A stretch of 55,966 bases of DNA from Acidobacteriaceae bacterium (GTDB lineage: Bacteria > Acidobacteriota > Terriglobia > Terriglobales > Acidobacteriaceae), in contig PKVW01000060.1 in assembly GCA_003131585.1 (NCBI GenBank), forward strand, positions 9,194 to 65,159. Reading direction: 5' to 3'. The first letter of the stretch is position 1; each line of letters begins with the position of its first letter. The notes beneath the pieces are model-generated. The model was given only the letters and a program-made list of their open reading frames with translations. It was not told the DNA's origin and ran no database searches. Both the position numbers and the translations under genes were made by a program. This document shows positions 4,230-54,612 of the stretch, piece by piece.

Positions 4230-4283
4230 CTAGCGCCCGTTTATCGATCCAGCATGGCTTCTTCCGGCGCAAAGGAAATCATC

Positions 4284-5344: not shown

Positions 5345-7255
5345 CTAAGCTCGCACCGGACTTTCCCCACCCTTCGCGATGCCCCGTCCCGGATCCGGCT
5401 TCAATACCTGCTGCACGCCGCCATCATCGGGTTTTGAGGGAGACTTCATCGGAGGCAATCCCTTGCCCTCCACCAGCATCATCACTTCGGAGGCATCCAG
5501 CACTTCCCGCTCCAGCAAAGCCAGCGCAATCTTTTGAAGCGTGTCGCGATTCCCTTGCAGGATCTGCTTTGCCGTTTCATAGCCATTGTTCACCAGCTTG
5601 CGGACCTCGCCATCAATCTTGATCGCGGTGTCTTCGCTGTAATCGCGGTGCTGGCTGATCTCGCGGCCCAGGAATATCTGCTCCTCTTTCTTGCCGAAGG
5701 TGAGCGGGCCCAGATCGCTCATGCCCCACTCGCACACCATCTTGCGCGCCATTTCCGTGGCCCGCTCGATGTCGTTTCCCGCGCCTGTGCTCATCTGGCT
5801 GAGGAACAATTCCTCGGCCAGACGCCCGCCCATCAGAATCGCGAGATCGGTCTGCAAATACTCCTTGGTGTAGTTGTGCCGGTCATCCACCGGCAACTGC
5901 ATGGTCACGCCCAACGCCATGCCGCGCGGAATGATCGTGACCTTGTGCACCGGGTCCGAGCCCGGCAGCTTCGCCGCCACCAATGCGTGCCCGGCTTCGT
6001 GGTAGGCCGTGACCTTCTTTTCGGCGTCGGAAAGGATCAGCGACTTGCGTTCCACGCCCATCAGCACTTTGTCCTTGGCGACTTCGAAGTCGAACATCAG
6101 CACAGCCTTGCGGTTCTGCCGCGCCGCAGCCAGTGCCGCTTCGTTCACCATATTGGCCAGGTCCGCGCCGGAGAATCCAGGCGTGCCGCGCGCCAGCACC
6201 GTCAGATCGACATCCTCGGCAAGAGGAATCTTGCGGGTGTGTACGCGCAGGATTTCTTCGCGGCCGCGCACATCGGGACGGCTCACCACCACCCGCCGGT
6301 CAAAACGTCCCGGCCGCAGCAATGCCGGATCCAGCACGTCAGGCCGGTTCGTCGCCGCCATGAGAATCACGCCCTCATTAGACTCGAAGCCGTCCATCTC
6401 CACCAGCAACTGGTTCAAGGTCTGTTCGCGCTCGTCGTGACCACCGCCCAGGCCGGCGCCACGATGCCGTCCCACAGCGTCAATCTCGTCGATGAAAATG
6501 ATGCACGGCGCGTTCTTCTTGCCCTGCTCGAACAGGTCGCGCACGCGGCTGGCGCCGACGCCCACGAACATCTCCACGAAGTCCGAGCCCGAGATCGAAA
6601 AGAAAGGAACGTTGGCTTCGCCGGCGACGGCTCGAGCCAAAAGCGTTTTGCCGGTTCCCGGAGGTCCAACCAGCAGCACTCCCTTGGGAATCCTTCCGCC
6701 AAGTTTTTGAAACTTCTGCGCCTCGCGCAGGAATTCGATGATCTCGCGCAGCTCTTCCTTGGCCTCTTCCACGCCGGCCACGTCCTTGAACGTGACTTTC
6801 TTTTGCTGCATCGAAAGCAATCGCGCGCGGCTCTTCCCGAACGACAACGCTTTGTTGCCGCCCGTCTGCATCTGGCGGATCATGAAGAACCACAAAGCGC
6901 CCAGCAGAATCAGAGGAGCCCAGGTCCCCAGCAACTGCAGCGGCCAGCTTCCGCTGTTGACATCCTTGATATTGACCGACACGCCCTTGTCGTTGAGGGT
7001 CTTGAACATGTCGGGATAATTCGCCGGAACCGTGCTATGGAAGGCGGAGCCGTCGCGGTATTTTCCCTTTACCTGCTGGCCGTCCAGGGTGACTTCATGC
7101 ACGTTCCCCTGACCCACGTCACTCATGAACTGCGAGAAATTAACTTCCTTTTCCTTCGGCCCGCCGCGTCCCTGCTGAATCACGGTCCACAACAGAAGAG
7201 CGGACAGCCCAATCACCACCCAAAAGACTACGGTTTTTACTGTCGAATTCACCAA
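5345..7255 (-). CDS. ftsH: ATP-dependent zinc metalloprotease FtsH
   Basis: A 636-residue membrane AAA protease that degrades misfolded and regulatory membrane and cytosolic proteins. Two membrane helices (8-24 and 109-127) flank a periplasmic domain of about 80 residues. The AAA module has Walker A GPPGTGKT (197-204), Walker B IIFIDEID (252-259) and the second region of homology ending [10 protein letters not shown] (312-321). The M41 protease domain has HEAGH at 419-423. It is the last gene of the tilS-ABM-hpt-ftsH series, a common bacterial order, and is closed by the terminator at 5288-5315. The length is normal and all key residues are present. Confidence 0.97.
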
Positions 7256-7413
7256 GAAGCTCCTGAAGAAACCGGGGTGCTGCCACTAAGCGCAAAGCCC
7301 CGAGGCTCCTACCTCTAAATTAGATGCCGTTCGGCCAATTTCGATAGGGAAATTCCCTAAGACCACTATTCTACCTTTTCTCTGGGAAAAAGGCGCGTCG
7401 TCTCCCGCGTGAC

Positions 7414-8469: not shown

Positions 8470-10340
8470 TTCTCCTCAACTGCCCAAGGCATCTCCCGGA
8501 TCAGCACCGCTTCCTGCTTCGCTTTGGCGCATAATCTGGCGGGAACCGGAAAGCCGCGCATCCACACGATCTCGTCTCCGCTCGCTACGACCGGCCAGAG
8601 CCTGCGCCCTTGTTCCCCAATATGACGCGCCACCTGCCGCTCTTGCAGCAGATCCTTGACCTTCTTCGGCGACTTCGTATGCGCCGGCCAAAACCGGTCT
8701 CCCGGACGCCAGTTCCGCACGATTAACCGTCCCGGCAAAAGCTCTGCGCGAAGAAGTTGCTGCGGATTATACTCCGCCGCCTGCGACTCCGGAATGATCG
8801 ACCCTGCACTGACGCGCAACGCTTCGATTACCGCCCCGAGTTCCGGCACAAAAGCACGCCCCGGCACCGGAAGAGAGTATTCGTAGTCCGGAACCCGCTG
8901 CTCACGCCGCAAATCCGGCGTAACGAAAACCATGGCCTCGGGCTCGCGGACCAGCTTCCAACCCAAGGGCAATGACAACTCTTTACCCGACGGACCTTCC
9001 TGAGCCGCGACGCGAAGAATTTCTTCGATGTGCTTGAACTCCAGCGGAATCCCCGCCTGCTCGCCGATCGCCTTCAACACTCTTCTTTGCACCGCCCGTG
9101 GCTCGGTCAGCAGCCAAGGCCGGCTCACGGAAGCATTCATTACCAGCCAAGGCACATCCGCGATTCGTGACCGCAAACCCAAATCCATTGGCAGACACTC
9201 GGCTTGCGCGCCGCCCACCGGCTCGATCTGAACGAAACTCAAATCCTGCACCTCGCGGGCCCACGCAGGTTCAGACCACTGCACCACCGTCCCCAGCCAA
9301 CCCGAGATTTCATTCTCCCAGTAGTCTTCCTCGTCGCGGGCGATCTCCGCCAGTTCGGCGAAACTCTCCACCACGGCAGGATTGAACTCCCGCTCCAGCA
9401 ATGGAAGCACAAGCTTGCGCACGCGGTTGCGGGTGAACTTGGCATCGGCGTTGCTCGAATCTTCCCGCCAGGGCTGCTTGAGATCGACCAGATACTGCTC
9501 CAGTTCGCGCCGCCGGATTCCCAGCAAAGGACGGACGATTTCGCCGTGACCCTCCCCATCATTGTGCTCGACAACGATTCGCGGATAAATTCCCCCAAGC
9601 CCCCGCAGTCCCGTCCCGCGAATCAGCCGCATCAGCACGGTCTCGGCCTGATCGTCGAGCGTGTGCCCAGTCGCGATCTTGCTCCAAGCACTCTCTTGAT
9701 TTTGTCTTTGAAAGGGCACGGCTTCAGCCGTGCCGTTGGGCGTCAGTTCAGAAAAGGGCTTTAGCCCCTGAGTCTTTGCGCTCTTGGGTGGCGCAGCGCT
9801 TCCAGCGCTGCGATAAGCGGACTCGCGATCCTGGGCTTCAACCCCTGAAGTCCTTGAAGCCTCTGCCGGAGTTGGTTTCGGGAAGGGCACGGCTTCAGCC
9901 GTGCCGCAAGGCTCCCCCATAGACTCGGACTTTAGCCCCTGAGGAACCTCTGGCTCGATCTCCCTATCGGCGCCCTCGCCCGCACCCAGAAGCCGATGAA
10001 AGAATCCGTACCGCAGTTCACGCGCAGCCGCCTCCAGCCCGGAGTGTTCCTCGGCAGCAAGCCGCGCCACGTCGCCGCTCGCAGCATGAAACTCCAACCC
10101 ATGCTCACAAGCCAGCTTTGCGACAAACTCCCGATCCGCCTCTGACTCCGCCCCGCGCAGCTTGTGATTGAAATGAACAACGGAGAGGACGATGCCGAGT
10201 TCTCGACGCAATTCAATCAGCAGCCGCAGAAGCGCAACCGAATCGATCCCACCCGAAACCGCAACTCCGACCCGGTCCCCGGCCCGCAGCAGTTCCTGCC
10301 TTCGGATATGCCCCAATACGCGCTCCGCCAGTGAATGCAC
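8460..10340 (-). CDS. tilS: tRNA(Ile)-lysidine synthetase with an in-frame repeat insertion
   Basis: TilS modifies C34 of the AUA-decoding tRNA-Ile to lysidine, an essential reaction. The PP-loop motif SGGIDS lies near the N-terminus, HFNHKLRGAESEADREFV follows, and KIATGHTLDDQAETVLMRL marks the second half of the N-terminal domain. The C-terminal TilS domain has RNWRPGDRF and KVKDLLQERQVARH. Between RLLGAGE and SKIATGH about 95 extra residues are inserted, including two copies of GTAEAVPF, encoded by dispersed genomic repeats (9710-9945). The total is therefore well above the usual 430-550 residues. The GTG at 10340 fits the family start; a TTG at 10373 is also possible. It heads the ABM-hpt-ftsH series. 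Confidence 0.93.
   Translation of the reverse strand: MHSLAERVLGHIRRQELLRAGDRVGVAVSGGIDSVALLRLLIELRRELGIVLSVVHFNHKLRGAESEADREFVAKLACEHGLEFHAASGDVARLAAEEHSGLEAAARELRYGFFHRLLGAGEGADREIEPEVPQGLKSESMGEPCGTAEAVPFPKPTPAEASRTSGVEAQDRESAYRSAGSAAPPKSAKTQGLKPFSELTPNGTAEAVPFQRQNQESAWSKIATGHTLDDQAETVLMRLIRGTGLRGLGGIYPRIVVEHNDGEGHGEIVRPLLGIRRRELEQYLVDLKQPWREDSSNADAKFTRNRVRKLVLPLLEREFNPAVVESFAELAEIARDEEDYWENEISGWLGTVVQWSEPAWAREVQDLSFVQIEPVGGAQAECLPMDLGLRSRIADVPWLVMNASVSRPWLLTEPRAVQRRVLKAIGEQAGIPLEFKHIEEILRVAAQEGPSGKELSLPLGWKLVREPEAMVFVTPDLRREQRVPDYEYSLPVPGRAFVPELGAVIEALRVSAGSIIPESQAAEYNPQQLLRAELLPGRLIVRNWRPGDRFWPAHTKSPKKVKDLLQERQVARHIGEQGRRLWPVVASGDEIVWMRGFPVPARLCAKAKQEAVLIREMPWAVEENEI
9710..9945. repeat. 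Three dispersed palindromic repeat units inside tilS
   Basis: Unit 1 (9710-9772) and unit 3 (9880-9944) share gggcacggcttcagccgtgccg followed by ctttagcccctgag. Unit 2 (9790-9850) has a different palindrome, gcgcagcgcttccagcgctgcg, with the same tail type (gggcttcaacccctgaa). All three preserve the tilS reading frame, so they are translated. Confidence 0.88.
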
Positions 10341-14319: not shown

Positions 14320-15708
14320 TCAGACTTCCGCCCCAACCATGCGCATGACTGCGCCCACCAGATAGATCGACCCTGTGATCACAACCACTGTCCCCGCACT
14401 CGCGAGCAATCGGGCCCGCTCCACAGCGCCATGTACGTCCTCTACCGCTTCAATTTCAATTCCAGTTCGGGCCGCCGCTCGCTGAATCTCCTCTGGCGAC
14501 GCTGCGCGCGGATTCTCCGGCCGGGTCGCAATCACTCGATCCGCCAGCGGAAACAAAATTTCCGCCATCTCCGAGATTGCCTTATCCCGCATCGCGCCGA
14601 AAACAAAAATCAGTGGACGATCTTCGTACCGTTCCGAAAGGGCCGAGCGCAGCGCCCATGCGCCCGCGGGGTTGTGCGCCACATCGATAACCAGCTCCGG
14701 CCACCGCGGCCGCGCCGCGATCACTTGAAACCGCCCCGGCCAGCGCGTCTCGCGGATGCCGCTCTCGATGCTCTTCGGCGTGATGCCGCTGAATCCCTGC
14801 TGATTCAACTCTGCCGCGGCCGCAATCGCCAGCGCTACATTGCGCAATTGATGCCGCCCCACCAAGGGCGTCTCCACCAGGATCTGTTCTCCCAGAACCT
14901 GAAGCGGGTAGCGATACACGAACCCGGGGTTGCCCTGCTCGCTACTCGGTACTCGGTACTCGGTACGGCGCGCCATGTACCCGGCACTCCCCGGCGAAAC
15001 CGGCGGCACATACGGAACCGCGTTCACCGCCCGCGCTCCCAGTTCCAGGATCGTATTTCCAATGACGTCATTTGCTTCGGGCTGCTGCGGCAGCGTCACC
15101 ACCACGCCGCCTGCACGAATAATTCCTACCTTCTCCCGCGCAATCTCGCCCACCGTATTTCCGAGAAACTTTTGATGATCGAGCGCTATATCGGTAATCA
15201 CGCTCACTCGCGGCTCAACCACATTCGTCGCATCCAACCGCCCGCCCATTCCGACCTCGAGCACCGCCAGGTCCACTCTCTCCCGCGCAAAATACTCGAA
15301 GGCAATCGCAGTCATCATCTCGAAAAAACTGGGATGCCAGGGCAGTTCCGCCCGTTCCACCAACCTTTCCGCAACCCGATCCACCTCGGCGTGCAGAGAC
15401 GCAAAATCGTCGTCGCTGATTTCTTCTCCGTTCACCCGGATCCGCTCGTTGATGCGCACCAGATGCGGCGATGTGTACAAACCCGTTTTCAATCCCGAGG
15501 CCCGCAGGATCGAGGCCAGCGTCGCCGCCGTCGAACCCTTGCCATTCGTGCCCGCGATCAGCATGCTCGGGAAACGCCGCTCCGGATGATCCATCCCCTG
15601 CAACAGCACCCGCATATGCGCCAGATCGAATTTGTGCGAAGGCATCTGCGCCAACTCATGTCCCAGCGCGAACATGCGGGCCACCGCGGTTTGGTAGGAA
15701 GTGGGCAA
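14320..15708 (-). CDS. folC: Folylpolyglutamate synthase / dihydrofolate synthase
   Basis: A 462-residue Mur-ligase-type enzyme adding glutamate to dihydropteroate and tetrahydrofolate. It has the P-loop AGTNGKGST (52-60), TSPHLVRINERI, the Mg-binding region VLEVGMGGRLDATN (149-162), DIALDHQKFLG, and the C-terminal domain with DVAHNPAGAWAL. Residues 248-258 (RTEYRVPSSEQ) are encoded by the tandem repeat at 14935-14967 and sit in a loop that is short in most FolC proteins, so this is an in-frame insertion. accD lies just upstream across a repeat element. Confidence 0.95.
   Translation of the reverse strand: MPTSYQTAVARMFALGHELAQMPSHKFDLAHMRVLLQGMDHPERRFPSMLIAGTNGKGSTAATLASILRASGLKTGLYTSPHLVRINERIRVNGEEISDDDFASLHAEVDRVAERLVERAELPWHPSFFEMMTAIAFEYFARERVDLAVLEVGMGGRLDATNVVEPRVSVITDIALDHQKFLGNTVGEIAREKVGIIRAGGVVVTLPQQPEANDVIGNTILELGARAVNAVPYVPPVSPGSAGYMARRTEYRVPSSEQGNPGFVYRYPLQVLGEQILVETPLVGRHQLRNVALAIAAAAELNQQGFSGITPKSIESGIRETRWPGRFQVIAARPRWPELVIDVAHNPAGAWALRSALSERYEDRPLIFVFGAMRDKAISEMAEILFPLADRVIATRPENPRAASPEEIQRAAARTGIEIEAVEDVHGAVERARLLASAGTVVVITGSIYLVGAVMRMVGAEV
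14935..14967. repeat. Tandem repeat (actcggt unit) translated inside folC
   Basis: Three head-to-tail copies of actcggt-type units occur in a loop of FolC and keep its frame. The unit recalls the intergenic class seen upstream of selD (cggtac core). Confidence 0.8.
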
Positions 15709-15741: not shown

Positions 15742-15952
15742 TTAGCTGTTAGCTCCAGGTTCGCGGCTTTTCCTCATTGCAGATTATCAAACGGACTTGA
15801 CGATTCAGGCAGATACTTCCGAAAGTCATTCGGCAGGAGTCAAGTCGAAGAAGTTAAATCGAAGGTCCGGAAAGCAGTAAACGCCGGCCTGTGGCTACAG
15901 GCCAGCGACTGGAAGCCAGGAGCTATGGGCGAAGAGCTGGAGCTAACAGCTT
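15742..15952. repeat. Inverted-arm repeat element between accD and folC
   Basis: Left arm ttagctgttagctccagg (15742-15759) and right arm agctggagctaacagctt (15935-15952) are inverted copies, with the accD stop codon inside the right arm. Between them is another palindrome, ggcctgtggctacaggcc, near 15884-15901. The element fills the whole gap. Confidence 0.75.
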
Positions 15953-16791
15953 CCCACCATGAAATCCAGCGCCCGCGCGATGTACGGCTTGAGTTCCTTG
16001 CGATGCACCACCGCGTCCAGCATCCCATGCTCCAGCAGAAATTCGCTGCGCTGGAATCCCGCCGGCAATTTCTGGCGGATCGTCTGCTCGATCACTCGCG
16101 GCCCCGCAAACCCAATCAGCGCCCCAGGCTCGGCAATATTCAAATCGCCCAGCATGGCAAACGACGCCGTCACGCCGCCCGTGGTCGGGTCGGTCAGAAC
16201 GGAAACATACGGAACCTTCGCCTGATCCAGCCGCGCCAGCGCCGCCGAAATCTTGGCCAGCTGCATCAGGCTGACCACACCCTCCATCATCCGCGCCCCG
16301 CCCGAAGCGGACACAATAACCAGCGGCGTGTGCGAATCCACCGCGCGCTCGACCGCCCGGGTGATCATCTCGCCCACCACCGCGCCCATACTGCCGCCAA
16401 TGAACGCATACTCCATCACACTGGCGATCACAAGCCGGCCCAGCAGCTTGCCTTGCGCGTTGATCACCGCATCTTTCAGTCCCGTATCGTGCTGCGCCTG
16501 CCGCAGCCGCGACGCGTACGGCTTCAAATCCACAAACTTCAGCGGATCCGTCGACGACAGATTCGCGTCAAACGTCTCATACTGATTCTCATCCAGCAGC
16601 AGCGCCAGTCTCGTCCGCGCATCGATCCGAAAATGCTTTTCGCATTTCGGACACACGTTCAAATTCTCTTCCAGATCTTTCTTCCAGATGATCTGCCGGC
16701 AGTTCTCACACTTCACCCACAACCCTTCGGTGCGAACCGTCTTCGCGCCCGAAGTGTCCAGTTCCCCGGATTCCCGCTTGAACCAAGCCAT
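15943..16791 (-). CDS. accD: Acetyl-CoA carboxylase carboxyltransferase, beta subunit
   Basis: A 282-residue subunit which, with AccA, transfers CO2 from biotin carboxyl carrier protein to acetyl-CoA to make malonyl-CoA. The N-terminal zinc ribbon has Cys28, Cys31, Cys47 and Cys50 (CENC, CPKC). The crotonase-like core has GGSMGAVVGE, SASGGARMMEGVVSLMQL and PTTGGVTASFAMLGD. Normal length. It is flanked by repeat elements that exactly fill the gaps to folC (downstream) and cobO (upstream). Its stop codon lies inside a repeat arm. Confidence 0.96.
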   Translation of the reverse strand: MAWFKRESGELDTSGAKTVRTEGLWVKCENCRQIIWKKDLEENLNVCPKCEKHFRIDARTRLALLLDENQYETFDANLSSTDPLKFVDLKPYASRLRQAQHDTGLKDAVINAQGKLLGRLVIASVMEYAFIGGSMGAVVGEMITRAVERAVDSHTPLVIVSASGGARMMEGVVSLMQLAKISAALARLDQAKVPYVSVLTDPTTGGVTASFAMLGDLNIAEPGALIGFAGPRVIEQTIRQKLPAGFQRSEFLLEHGMLDAVVHRKELKPYIARALDFMVGSC

Positions 16792-16798
16792 AAGAATT

Positions 16799-16892
16799 TA
16801 GCGATTGAGCGATTTTGTGATTTGGCGATTGAGAATCGAACCAAGACGCTGGAAAAAATCGCCCAATCGCCCGATCACAAAATCACTCAATT
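16799..16892. repeat. Inverted-arm repeat element between cobO and accD
   Basis: Left arm 16799-16833 (units of the type gcgattgag / gattttgtgattt) is mirrored by right arm 16858-16892 (cccaatcgcccgatcac, aaaatcactcaat). A spacer of 24 nt separates them. The element starts 7 bp before the accD ATG (minus strand) and ends at the cobO stop codon, so it forms the whole intergenic gap. Confidence 0.8.
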
Positions 16893-17429
16893 TCAGTACT
16901 CGATCCCCCTCTGCGCCATCACGCCTTTCTCGTAAGCGTGCTTTACCTGCCGCATCTCCGTCACTGTGTCCGCTGCCTCCACAATTGTGGGATGCGCGTT
17001 CCTCCCCGTCAAGATAACATGCACCATCTCCGGTTTCTTCTTCAGGCTCTCCACCACTTTCGCCGGGTCAAGCATCCCATAACTGATCGCATAGTTGATC
17101 TCATCCAAGACCACGAGATCCCACTCGCCCGATTGGATCGCCCTTTCCCCCTCCGCCCACGCCTCCTCTACCATCCTCACGTCTTCGGGATCCGGTTTCT
17201 CCGCGCCCACCTTCACAAATCCCCGCCCCATCTGCTTCATCACGAACTTATCTCCGAAAGCCTTCACCGCATCCAGTTCCCCGTAGTGCCATGAGCCCTT
17301 CAGGAACTGCAGCATCAGCACCCGCATCCCCTGGCCCACCGCGCGCAGAGCCGTCCCCATCGCCGCGGTCGTCTTGCCTTTGCCCGGCCCGGTGTTCACG
17401 ATGATGAGACCGCGGCGTACGTCAGTCAT
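16893..17429 (-). CDS. cobO: Cob(I)yrinic acid a,c-diamide adenosyltransferase
   Basis: A 178-residue CobO/BtuR/CobA-family P-loop enzyme transferring the adenosyl group of ATP to cob(I)alamin. The motif GPGKGKTTAAMGTALRA lies at 14-30, followed by VLMLQFLKGSWHYGE, DLVVLDEINYAISYGML and VILTGRNAHPTIVEAADTVTEM. Full length. No other cobalamin gene is in the window, so this may serve salvage rather than de novo synthesis. The downstream repeat at 16799-16892 begins at its stop codon. Confidence 0.94.
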   Translation of the reverse strand: MTDVRRGLIIVNTGPGKGKTTAAMGTALRAVGQGMRVLMLQFLKGSWHYGELDAVKAFGDKFVMKQMGRGFVKVGAEKPDPEDVRMVEEAWAEGERAIQSGEWDLVVLDEINYAISYGMLDPAKVVESLKKKPEMVHVILTGRNAHPTIVEAADTVTEMRQVKHAYEKGVMAQRGIEY

Positions 17430-19663: not shown

Positions 19664-19814
19664 GGTTGGTCGTTAGTCGTTAGCCCGCGCACGGGCTGAG
19701 TCTCTATTGTAAACGACTGTTGCTCTGCACGGTCGAGGATGCGCCCTGCGGCACAAGTCTTGGCGAACGACCATTGGCGAACGACCATTGACTAACGACC
19801 AACCACTAACGACT
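19664..19814. repeat. Inverted-arm repeat element between nadD and rsfS
   Basis: The left arm ggttggtcgttagtcgttag (19664-19683) is inverted at 19790-19812 (actaacgaccaaccactaacgac). The right side also has tandem gcgaacgaccattg units (19772-19799). It starts 6 bp upstream of the rsfS ATG (minus) and reaches the nadD stop codon. Confidence 0.8.
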
Positions 19815-46283: not shown

Positions 46284-47195
46284 TTGCAGAAGCGCTTTTA
46301 CATCCTTTTCGTGGCTCGCGGGGACGACGGGCAGTTGCGCAAGATCTCCATCCCGGTCCAATACCTGTATGTATTTGTAGTCGGAGCGGCGATTGTATTC
46401 CTCAGTCTCACCGGGATTGCCAGTTCTTATACGCGCATGCTGCTCAAGGTCTCGCACTACAACGAACTGCGCACCGAAAAAGAGCAGCTCAAGGATCGTT
46501 ATTCCCGGCTGGAAGAGGTCGCCAAGGAGCGCGACGTCCAAGTCGCTTCTCTGGGCTCGATCGCCAGTGAAGTATCCGCTCTTTACGGATTGAAGTCGCG
46601 GCCCATGCTGGTCACGGCCTCGCAGCAGCAAATCCAAGACGCCGACGTCACTTCTTCGCTGGACCAGCTTGGCGCCCTGCGCGCTTCCGCCCTCACCGGC
46701 GCCGCCACGGTTGGCATCAGCCTCGGCATGACGCGCAACGCCACCACTGCCGACTGGTTCCGCGCCAACTCCGCGCCCAACCTCTGGCCGGTCGAGGGCC
46801 AGGTCACCGGCAGCTTCGGTGAGCGCATCGACCCATTTAACGGGGAAGGCGCCTTTCACAGCGGCGTGGATATTGGCAGCACTTACGGCCACCCGATCAT
46901 CGCGCCCGCCGATGGCGTGGTCACCTTCGCCGACTTCCTTGGCGGATACGGCAAGGCCATCATGGTGGATCATGGCCACGGCATCTCCACCCGCTACGGC
47001 CACCTTTCCGGCTACGCTGTCGCACCCGGACAGCAGGTCCATCGCGGCGACACCATCGGCTATGTCGGCCTCAGCGGCCGCTCGACTGGGCCCCACCTCC
47101 ACTACGAAGTCCGCATCAACGACACTCCGGTCAATCCTTACAAATACCTTCGCATGACCGTCGCCCACAGCGGCGGCTTCCAGACCGGCAGCTAG
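46284..47195 (+). CDS. M23 (LytM-type) peptidase, membrane-anchored
   Basis: A 303-residue protein. The TTG at 46284 is the only start that leaves the N-terminal membrane helix (about 28-50, YLYVFVVGAAIVFLSLTGIA) intact. A coiled coil follows (about 55-90, NELRTEKEQLKDRYSRLEEVAK). The C-terminal LytM domain has the zinc motifs HSGVDIGS and GPHLHYEVR and a GDTIGYVGLSG turn. All key residues are present, so it may be an active cell-wall hydrolase of the DipM/MepM sort rather than an EnvC-like activator. A structured leader precedes it and a repeat element follows, running up to cysE. Confidence 0.9.
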   Translation: MQKRFYILFVARGDDGQLRKISIPVQYLYVFVVGAAIVFLSLTGIASSYTRMLLKVSHYNELRTEKEQLKDRYSRLEEVAKERDVQVASLGSIASEVSALYGLKSRPMLVTASQQQIQDADVTSSLDQLGALRASALTGAATVGISLGMTRNATTADWFRANSAPNLWPVEGQVTGSFGERIDPFNGEGAFHSGVDIGSTYGHPIIAPADGVVTFADFLGGYGKAIMVDHGHGISTRYGHLSGYAVAPGQQVHRGDTIGYVGLSGRSTGPHLHYEVRINDTPVNPYKYLRMTVAHSGGFQTGS

Positions 47196-47203
47196 AGCAC
47201 CTC

Positions 47204-47375
47204 GCAGTTCTCAGTTCTCAGCCCTTGCACTCTTTCCCTCGCTAGGCTACGTTCATGAGGAAGAAGAAAGAAAGTTTCAATCCCGGTTCTCCGTTCTCAG
47301 TAACGGCGCGCAAACGCCAATCTGAGAAGCAAGCACTCTGAAGGGTTTTACTGAGAACTGAGAACCGAGAACTGC
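47204..47375. repeat. Inverted-arm repeat element between M23 gene and cysE
   Basis: Left arm gcagttctcagttctcag (47204-47221), a middle copy ggttctccgttctcag (about 47284-47299) and right arm ctgagaactgagaaccgagaactgc (47351-47375, quoted in two pieces: ctgagaactgag, aaccgagaactgc). The element fills the gap and ends 3 bp before the cysE ATG. Confidence 0.82.
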
Positions 47376-47378
47376 CCC

Positions 47379-48116
47379 ATGACCAGCTTCTTCCACTCGG
47401 TGCGCGAGGACGTTGCCGCTGTCTTCGAGTCGGACCCCGCTGCCCGCTCCTATCTCGAAGTCCTCATCTGCTATCCGGGTCTGCATGCAGTGTGGGCGCA
47501 TCACTTGAGCCACTGGCTCTGGGGCCACGGCATGCGCTTCCCGGCGAGATTCGTTTCGCAAGTGGCTCGACTGTTCACTGGGATTGAGATTCATCCCGGC
47601 GCAGAGATTGGACGGCGTCTCTTTATCGATCACGGCATGGGCACGGTGATCGGCGAAACGGCCATTGTCGGCGACGACGTCACGCTCTACCAGGGTGTGA
47701 CCCTGGGCGGAACCGGCAAAGAGAAGGGCAAGCGCCATCCAACCATCGGCAACAACATCTCGATCGGCTCCGGCGCAAAGCTGCTGGGCAACATCACGAT
47801 CGGGGACAACTGCCGCGTGGGCGCGGGCTCGGTCGTGCTGCGGAGTGTCCCGGCCAATTCCACGATTGTGGGCGTGCCGGGACACATCGTTCTGCGCGAC
47901 GGCAAACGCGTCGTCATCACCGACCCCAAGGACATTCGCGACCCGCTGTCCGACGTAATCATCAAGTTGGCGGCGGAAGTGCATGAGCTGCGCGAGAAGT
48001 TTCAGGACCATTCGCACGCAGCGCTGGGCGCTGAGCCTGACCTGAGAATCGATGAAGGGACGGCGGCGCCGAATATCTCTCCCCAAGACCTGTTCCAGGA
48101 CGATTACCAGATCTGA
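47379..48116 (+). CDS. cysE: Serine O-acetyltransferase
   Basis: A 245-residue CysE making O-acetylserine from serine and acetyl-CoA. The N-terminal helical part has [30 protein letters not shown]. The left-handed beta-helix shows hexapeptides [43 protein letters not shown] and [30 protein letters not shown], with the catalytic His in FIDHGMG. Its product could feed cysteine synthesis in this genome, though the CysM-type enzyme here probably prefers O-phosphoserine. Stop codon and repeat element (48120) are 3 bp apart. Confidence 0.95.
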
Positions 48117-48119
48117 AAG

Positions 48120-48220
48120 GCAGTGGCCAGTGGCCAGTGATCAGTGGTCAGTGGCCAGTAAAACCAGCCCGTCAACTAGGTCGTTTTCACTGGACACTGA
48201 TCACTGGACACTGATCACTG
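48120..48220. repeat. Inverted-arm repeat element between convergent genes
   Basis: The left arm (48120-48160) is made of cagtggcc / cagtgatc / cagtggtc units. The right arm (48188-48220) is made of cactggaca / ctgatcactg units, in inverted order. A loop with ttttcact precedes the right arm. It starts 3 bp after the cysE stop and ends at the stop codon of the convergent gene. Confidence 0.88.
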
Positions 48221-48222
48221 CG

Positions 48223-48615
48223 CTACTGCCTTAGTCCCATCCAGCTTTCCGAAATCACCAGCGAGTTGCCGGGATTGTGCGGGTCGTACTTCACCGAGGT
48301 GTGCAGCCCCAGCCGGCAGGAATGCAGGTTAATCCACTGGCGCAGGTAGGTAACGTCCTGCGAGCACTCGTACGACACACCCGCGACGTCATATTTGTAG
48401 ATGAGCAACACGGCGGCGTGATGGCCGTTGTTCGGTGGCAATTCCTGTACATCGATGACGGTGCCGTCGGTGATGCGCCCGATGCCGTCAAGCCAGGTGC
48501 GTCGTTCGCGCTCCAGATCAGCCGGCCCCTTGGGCTTGCGCCGCAATAGCGCGTAGACCCCAAGAGCAACCGCGCTGCCCACAGCAACCAGCGAATAGAG
48601 ACTGAATGAATCCAT
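48223..48615 (-). CDS. Conserved membrane protein of unknown function
   Basis: A 130-residue protein. I start at ATG 48615 (MDSFSLYS), giving a membrane helix near the N-terminus (about 6-22, LVAVGSAVALGVYALL). The soluble part contains LDGIGRITDGTVIDVQELPPN and VLLIYKYDVAGVSYECSQDVTYL, with two Cys, then SVKYDPHNPGNSLVISE. This resembles the beta-rich DUF3592 domain of small bacterial membrane proteins, but the match is only by eye. Its stop codon borders the repeat at 48120-48220. Confidence 0.72.
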   Translation of the reverse strand: MDSFSLYSLVAVGSAVALGVYALLRRKPKGPADLERERRTWLDGIGRITDGTVIDVQELPPNNGHHAAVLLIYKYDVAGVSYECSQDVTYLRQWINLHSCRLGLHTSVKYDPHNPGNSLVISESWMGLRQ

Positions 48616-54428: not shown

Positions 54429-54460
54429 AGGGCCGTTTGACGCGACCCAGCATTTTAACC

Positions 54461-54563
54461 CAGTGGTCAGTGGCCAGTGGTCACGTGGCCAGTGGTCAGT
54501 GAAGGACAAACCCTGCAAAGATTTCGTTTTTACTGGCCACTGGTCACTGACCACTGGCCACTG
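54461..54563. repeat. Inverted-arm repeat element upstream of the FAD oxidoreductase
   Basis: Left arm cagtggtcagtggccagtgg (54461-54480, plus partial copies to 54501) and right arm actggccactggtcactgac, cactggccactg (54532-54563) are inverted. The unit is the same as in 48120-48220 (cagtgg[ct]c), the only two loci in the window that share a unit. The loop again ends in cgttttt before the right arm. Confidence 0.88.
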
Positions 54564-54612
54564 CCTCACGGTAACTTGCCGCAGTTACCGCGCCTGCCTA
54601 GTCTGGACTAGT

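Follow-up and report, generated by a model that had tools for sequence, protein, structure and literature searches.

At the cobO-accD and atpA-atpG gaps of a genus of Acidobacteriaceae, a hairpin made of inverted arrays of short words usually persists through the genus while the word is replaced repeatedly, and both arms of an element change together. The stretch of DNA that we analysed, called the window here, is 55,966 nt long. Its focal element (48121-48221) consists of a left CAGTGNN array, a short loop and an inverted CAGTGNN array, and it lies between two stops, that of cysE and that of a convergent gene with no family assigned.

Direct reading of the window sequence showed all six array sites at about the places listed in Table 1, which bears out the common layout with exchangeable units that a sequence-only reading had described at six gaps. 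Four sites (16801-16891, 47204-47375, 48120-48221 and 54460-54563) have at least two parallel inverted-repeat diagonals, with offsets of 24 (8-nt units), 7, 14 and 14/15/29, respectively, and the other two (19664-19804 and 15744-15951) have a single diagonal each (score 15). Under the 5-mer detector described below, the GTCGTTA array at 19664 passes and the degenerate pair at 15744-15951 fails. The 'tttt-act' start of the right arm, also claimed earlier for three cases, is present at about 47346, 48184 and 54527 and is found again in relatives whose words are of the CAGT type. Four elements of the window have RNA-fold z-scores of -4.8 to -11.0. The detector also marks the window gaps at 4230, 13172 and 48688, which are chance-like by eye. 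The block inside the loop before cysE is suggested only as a candidate promoter, and a sigma-70 scan around it found none. A different, palindromic repeat class is seen at 9715-9905 of the window, where the palindrome GGCACGGCTTCAGCCGTGCC occurs twice with GC-rich palindromes (GCAGCGCTTCCAGCGCTGC) between.

Table 1 Array sites and neighbouring genes in the window. Positions count from the first base of the window.
Feature	Position	Strand	Description
Focal element, left arm	48121..48164	.	CAGTGNN units CAGTGGC, CAGTGGC, CAGTGAT, CAGTGGT, CAGTGGC, then CAGTAAAAC; 4 nt past cysE stop
Focal element, right arm	48184..48221	.	Inverted CAGTGNN units, first letters TTTTCACTGG; adjoins stop (48223) of convergent gene
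cysE (serine O-acetyltransferase)	47379..48116	+	TIGR01172 above cut-off; array gap on either side
CAGTTCT element, left arm	47204..47221	.	Directly 3' of stop of peptidase-like gene (46284-47195)
CAGTTCT element, right arm TTTTACTGAGAACTGAGAACCGAGAACTGC	47346..47375	.	Last base 3 nt upstream of cysE start codon
Loop-internal block CCCTTGCACTCTTTCCCTCGCTAGGCTACGTTCAT	47221..47256	+	Common to G018, G003 and G014 (by eye)
8-nt GCGATTGA-type hairpin	16801..16891	.	Occupies cobO-accD gap (16792-16892)
accD	15943..16791	-	TIGR00515 above cut-off
cobO/cobA-type adenosyltransferase gene	16893..17429	-	Stop abuts the 16801..16891 hairpin
AGCTNNC inverted pair, degenerate	15744..15951	.	Around accD-folC gap; weakest of the six sites
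GTCGTTA hairpin	19664..19812	.	nadD / rsfS gap
CAGTGGT/CAGTGGC left arm	54461..54503	.	Divergent gap 54429-54612
Right arm TTTTTACTGGCCACTGG...	54527..54564	.	Divergent gap 54429-54612
One-armed CGAGTACC array, in frame	14945..14962	-	Within folC coding sequence

Inverted arrays of short words are real and general, and well above chance. Our detector looked for a 5-mer present twice at unit spacing and its complement present twice further on, and genes were called with a simple model of our own that gives approximate start positions. Array-marked gaps numbered 23 of 268 in a sample of 455,966 bases of the window's genome (3.93 Mb, 96% complete), 11 of 222 in the congener G014 and 64 of 245 in G160, a genome of another genus of the same family, compared with 1.7, 1.15 and 4.35 after shuffling; the detector overcounts, and clear arrays by eye are about 14 of the 23, 9 of the 11 and 55 of the 64. 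Coding DNA is avoided, the marked 150-nt coding windows being 11 of 2396, 10 of 1976 and 19 of 1915 in the three samples. The 455,966 bases contain 15 multi-diagonal and 21 single-diagonal inverted-repeat clusters, against 0 and 3 in one Markov shuffle. Lag-match tracts exceeded the shuffled counts at periods 7 (37 vs 8), 14 (55 vs 10), 15 (60 vs 8) and 21 (51 vs 9), where coding DNA also raises multiples of three, including periods 15 and 21. The best unit length among 90 usable elements was 7 nt in 57 and 8 nt in 29. Divergent gaps were marked in 16 of 145 cases.

The vocabulary is broad. G160 alone has well over a dozen words, for example GTCTTTCG, GTTATCGG, CACCGAG, AGTCTTC, AATTTGT, CGATGGT and AGTTTCG. 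The earlier impression that each locus has its own unit is correct only in part: by strict pattern, GTCGTTR was found at 1 locus of the 456-kb sample of the window's genome, CAGTGNN at 8, CAGTTCT at 3 and AGCTNTY at 0. Across the phylum, the CAGTGNN word was present in 20 of 149 genomes sampled; its reversed control word is absent in the window's genome but common in certain other genomes, in which it may itself serve as a word. A rough sample of 20 kb from each of 20 genomes, with a gene model trained on other genomes, gave arrays in 0 of 77 gaps of nine other same-family genomes, 1 of 10 in G203 and 10 of 76 in ten genomes outside the family, and because of the nine array-free samples within the family we regard the trait as patchy.

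Other repeat arrangements were seen in passing. At G160 C11 134917-135182 the structure is nested: CAGTGGC arms bound a 266-nt gap, and ACCGAG arms lie inside the loop. Contig C17 of the window's genome carries at 7108-7272 tandem 17-mers, each palindromic (TACGAATCGTACACGGA) and unlike the 7/8-nt arrays. A longer inverted repeat (ACAGGCTGCGGAAAAACTCGG...), of a conventional repeat family, is present in two almost identical copies, at L017 5102-5242 and L025 8768-8890.

The comparison of orthologous gaps carries the main finding. The cobO-accD gap measures 64-118 nt in all 23 same-genus genomes and contains arrays or hairpin remnants there by eye, whereas it is 1-32 nt in six order-level relatives. 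The strict detector, applied to a set that omits G010 (gene too short) and includes a G022 gap interrupted by Ns, marked 16 of 22 genus gaps, found two more one-armed and missed four; the undetected gaps here and at atpA-atpG are one-armed, degenerate or absent. The words within the genus (GTGATTGG-type 8-mers, CGAGTAC, CGAGTCC, CAGTACT, CAGTTCT and CAGTTGC) are unrelated or loosely related, and the wider family adds AGCTAGT, CGACTGA, GTTGCTG, CGTTGGC and others. The first and last 45 nt of a cobO-accD gap had a mean local score of 18.0 with each other, compared with 9.4 for left arms of different species and 8.0 for shuffled sequence, and 22 of 22 gaps lay above the cross-species mean. This arm test is weaker elsewhere (15 of 19 genomes at accD-folC, 6 of 9 before cysE and 6 of 9 after it).

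On an accD tree of 48 rows, three word classes, assigned by eye as was the CAGTTCT label at atpA-atpG, required 16 changes where the minimum possible is 2, and at least five changes of the 8-mer class are forced by well-supported branches alone. The labels are somewhat clustered on the tree (mean of 21.6 changes when shuffled, as low in 4 of 200 shuffles), therefore descent also contributes. The clearest replacement is between the sisters G004 and G017, in which the end of cobO is 94% and the start of accD 96% identical and the gap between them has an identity of 0.55, against 0.55 when shuffled. Both gaps (93 and 88 nt) are hairpin arrays, with CAGTACT and GTGATTGA, respectively.

Similar results were obtained between atpA and atpG, where the gamma subunit gene was named by family match and the alpha end by eye. 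The set includes a G005 gap that contains the end of atpA, and G016 was dropped (588 nt) and G021 not parsed. Over 20 usable gaps the arm-to-arm score was 14.0, compared with 7.3 for left arms of different species and 7.2 for shuffled sequence, with 19 of 20 above the cross-species mean; the strict detector marked 8 of 21 parsed gaps and found 5 more one-armed. CAGTACT occupies the gap in G017 and another palindrome (GTAGAGACGTAGCTTGCTACGTCTC...) in G004, the compared pieces of atpA being 99% and those of atpG 98% identical. Instead of an array, this G004 gap (L310) has a GTAGAGACGTAGC..GCTACGTCTC-type palindrome in two copies, which represents a further repeat class occupying the space from stop to start. 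Simple descent of the unit, which the sequence-only reading had named as a refutation of its view, thus fails at cobO-accD and atpA-atpG. Descent is visible too at the cysE gaps, because there the word is often retained or slow to drift, as from CAGTGGC to CAGTTGC. The divergent gap 54429-54612 has CAGTGGT in the window and an AGGGGTT hairpin in G014, between conserved flanks.

The tested words are multi-copy and lineage-specific. Counted as overlapping matches and not as loci, CAGTACYCAGTACYCAG occurs in 8 of 25 genus genomes, most often in the sisters G004 (24) and G017 (14); CGAGTACCGAGTACCGAG occurs in 8 of 25, most often in G000 (9), G016 (8) and G007 (7), of which G016 and G007 carry the word at cobO-accD; and CAGTTCTCAGTTCTCAG occurs in 19 of 25, with 1 to 160 matches. 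The five genomes that bear CAGTTCT at atpA-atpG have 12-160 genome matches to it, against 0-57 in the 16 other parsed genomes (p 0.002, and p 0.003 after subtracting three from each, both uncorrected for relatedness). Over 88 nt, the cobO-accD element of G004 shows about 80% similarity to the atpA-atpG element of G017, and the left arms share an exact stretch of 23 nt. A tolerant coding loop of folC holds in-frame one-armed arrays of CGAGTACC in the window's genome, CAGTACT in G004 and G017 and CAGTGGT in L232. Since the words are multi-copy, lineage-specific and common to several loci including folC, we favour a genome-wide vocabulary with ectopic copying over construction from local letters. 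The latter had been the suggestion of the sequence-only reading; it is not supported, because the three tested words and CAGTGNN are multi-copy and lineage-specific, so that for these words the multi-copy repeats which that reading had named as a second refutation largely exist. As a further observation on the folC loop (noted in L076, L068 and L232), the word differs between species, and in others an ACCGC(A/G)(A/G)AGG-type array encodes the peptide TAEDAEKAAEHAEK.

Arrays are placed mainly with respect to the stop codon. Among codirectional gaps of at most 600 nt, the array starts within 12 nt past the stop in 41 of 61 and ends within 12 nt of the next start in 22 of 61, so that the earlier claim of elements exactly filling the space from stop to start holds mainly for its stop side. 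The array is within 12 nt of the gene edge on 23 of 30 convergent stop sides and 3 of 24 divergent start sides. In gaps of at least 140 nt, stop-side anchoring was found in 21 of 36 compared with 3.0 expected for one randomly placed arm, and start-side anchoring in 8 of 36. An SD-like tetramer precedes 2 of 31 starts having an arm within 15 nt, against 249 of 675 other gap-preceded starts (Fisher p 0.0002); these position and Shine-Dalgarno statistics took in all detector-marked gaps of allowed length. Median RNA-fold z-scores are -3.1 to -5.3 in the array-gap sets and -0.1 and -0.4 in array-free codirectional gaps, and the unpaired length outside the stems is not different from that of shuffled gaps. 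The anchoring is not due to arrays supplying the stop codon by invading the gene end, because no more than 5 of the 53 arrays beside a stop extend by another unit into the gene. A choice of units that puts stop codons in all frames was rejected as well, 28 of 52 left-arm units (7-8 nt) being without a stop codon on either strand.

The account that we propose, and to which we give slightly less than an even chance, is that arrays spread and homogenise through slippage, foldback and ectopic copying, and that selection keeps the stem at a junction and not its letters. Slippage would expand a word into an array, which would account for equal units within one arm. Foldback or template switching, or else conversion between the arms, would keep the arms alike; a new word could reach the second arm by the same routes, by copying of the whole element or through selection for pairing. 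Words would be exchanged ectopically with other array copies in the same genome. Finally, in what is the least certain step, selection at the RNA level would retain the stem at a given junction and leave its letters free; we propose this level because the right arm would have replaced the Shine-Dalgarno region and a paired stem would hold stop and start close. Template switching or foldback is a reasonable candidate for the maker of inverted arms. In some elements, for example C37:11990-12099, one arm copies the other almost perfectly in inverted form. Between arms, the agreement in the order of variant units is weak: the mean is 21.3 vs 19.0 permuted, 72 of 90 elements exceed the null mean, and 13 of 90 reach p<=0.1 against an expectation of 9. 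This argues that whole-arm copying is no frequent recent event; we therefore put most weight on unit-by-unit exchange and selection for pairing, with neutral filling a serious rival.

The missing SD-like motif together with the stop anchoring suggest that the stem may hold the next start codon near the terminating ribosome. Since the unpaired distance outside the stems does not fall below that of shuffled gaps, the folds lend this proposed bridge no direct support, and the arrays in divergent gaps and the one-armed in-frame arrays of folC do not fit it. REPs close to stop codons affect translation. In convergent gaps the stem would serve as a structure at mRNA 3' ends; such a role, proposed earlier for the convergent pair at 48120, is possible there but not general, given the elements in cobO-accD-folC, atpA-atpG, S13-S11 and divergent gaps. 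It is conceivable, though we consider it rather unlikely in this full form, that junction elements are inherited as structure with a changing genomic vocabulary, any word being writable into both arms and selection acting only on the pairing between stop and start, even in ATP-synthase and ribosomal-protein operons.

Three further candidates were set aside. A telomerase-like reverse transcriptase adding heptamers was rejected on 0 RVT_1 matches in the window's genome, which is 96% complete; over 21 genomes RVT_1 presence does not track array richness. We also rejected the idea that arrays arise through loss of SbcD, a hairpin nuclease, since none of 21 genomes, whether rich or poor in arrays, has a match above the TIGR00619 cut-off. 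That search gave weak matches in 4 of the 21 Acidobacteriota genomes and matched 13 genomes of a 14-genome control, 8 of them above the cut-off, and the lack of SbcD may reflect a limit of the model or, at most, a background that permits palindromes. An assembly artefact seems unlikely because arrays occur in the same gaps of many independent assemblies.

The elements may also be neutral filler, a possible reading but in our judgement a less likely one, in which slippage and foldback make and homogenise arrays in any dispensable DNA without function, and coding DNA, promoters and ribosome-binding regions set the edges. It agrees with the occurrence of arrays in codirectional, convergent and divergent gaps and in the tolerant folC loop, with a contracted stop-start distance that is not special, and with stop sides being the least constrained part of a gap. 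It does not readily explain the persistence of arrays in the same cobO-accD gap through all 23 congeners, compared with the much shorter gap of order-level relatives, or a stop anchoring in long gaps that is 7 times the random expectation. An exchange of whole gap alleles between species by homologous recombination through the conserved flanking genes seems improbable to us. Different species do share word classes, and the closest match to a gap often comes from a species other than the nearest one by accD; however, the clearest swap (G004/G017) keeps its flanks 94-96% identical right up to the gap, and beyond its words the new element is matched by no sampled gap (best local score 25/93, with limited donor sampling).

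We rate as equally improbable that REP- or MITE-like mobile elements, mobilised by a transposase, are inserted and replaced at preferred sites past stop codons. Multi-copy word families would be expected of them, the similarity between the G004 cobO-accD and G017 atpA-atpG elements could be read in this way, and REP families likewise favour codirectional and convergent gaps, as described in PMC3733652. The loops of same-word elements are, however, unrelated by eye, no target-site duplication was seen, and a single genome has well over a dozen different words. Intrinsic or bidirectional terminators are very improbable as a general explanation. Although the stems are stable and near stop codons, convergent gaps included, a search at 46900-48400 for a G+C-rich hairpin followed by a T-run found 0 sites (shuffled mean 0.8), and elements are present in the atpA-atpG gap of most parsed genomes, at cobO-accD, in divergent gaps and at S13-S11 of G017 (S13 recognised by eye). 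A general terminator role is unlikely because sites of this kind lie inside the cobO-accD-folC, atpA-atpG and S13-S11 operons.

Several known systems resemble the arrays in part. Foldback (FB) transposons are eukaryotic mobile elements with target-site duplications and with terminal inverted repeats of short tandem units; the arrays too are inverted repeats of short tandem units, but no target-site duplications were seen in them. One of the closest known parallels is the P6b stem of the Nostoc tRNA-Leu(UAA) group I intron. It is built from heptanucleotides of Class I (TDNGATT) or Class II (NNTGAGT), and these two unrelated repeat classes, of similar structure, occupy one orthologous place and have replaced one another repeatedly and independently, according to the sections of PMC4476775 on this stem. 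The arrays also have stem arms of degenerate 7-nt units, and at cobO-accD and atpA-atpG also have alternative repeat classes at one orthologous site. As those sections describe it, P6b is one intron site with two classes, whereas the arrays occupy many intergenic, stop-anchored sites with many words; they do not lie in a tRNA-Leu group I intron, and no part of the window matched Rfam at gathering scores.

TAACTGA heptamers form intergenic direct repeats at many loci per genome in Beggiatoaceae, cyanobacteria and Bacteroidetes, often just upstream of starts without canonical ribosome-binding sites, as reported in the relevant part of PMC4679880. Starts beside an arm of the arrays likewise rarely have an SD-like motif, and one-armed AACTGAC-type heptamer arrays much like the Beggiatoaceae ones stand directly upstream of the accD start in some relatives (L257, L289 and L274, from other lineages of the phylum). 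The repeats in that account are of one word in direct orientation (with one indirect repeat in the draft genome), whereas the arrays have other, swapping words and inverted partner arms. The same part of PMC4679880 names heptanucleotides as the most abundant 5-11-nt class of long simple sequence repeats (LSSR) and attributes these to polymerase slippage; the arrays agree with LSSR in the heptanucleotide class and differ in their paired inverted arms, which its LSSR description does not contain. REP/BIME sequences, as described in PMC3733652, have in common with the arrays that they are intergenic, multi-copy, hairpin-forming and often at or near stop codons. They differ in having one conserved sequence per REP family and often linked tyrosine transposases, whereas the letters of the arrays are exchangeable, their words differing between loci and orthologues with no conserved 20-40-nt family sequence. 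In the openly licensed literature we found neither an account of hairpin arrays that swap words genome-wide nor, for Acidobacteria, any mention of elements like these.

Sequence is what usually identifies an intergenic repeat in bacteria. Here homology search fails between sister species while the element is seemingly still present, and for this reason annotation that relies on sequence largely misses such elements. Should the stem be under selection, structure would be decoupled from sequence at dozens of natural sites, which would allow a direct test of the effect of a stop-start mRNA hairpin on gene coupling. If the arrays are purely mutational, they would point to a process that changes the two arms of a palindrome together and distributes new words across the genome. 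Inheritance at these gaps looks more faithful to structure than to sequence.
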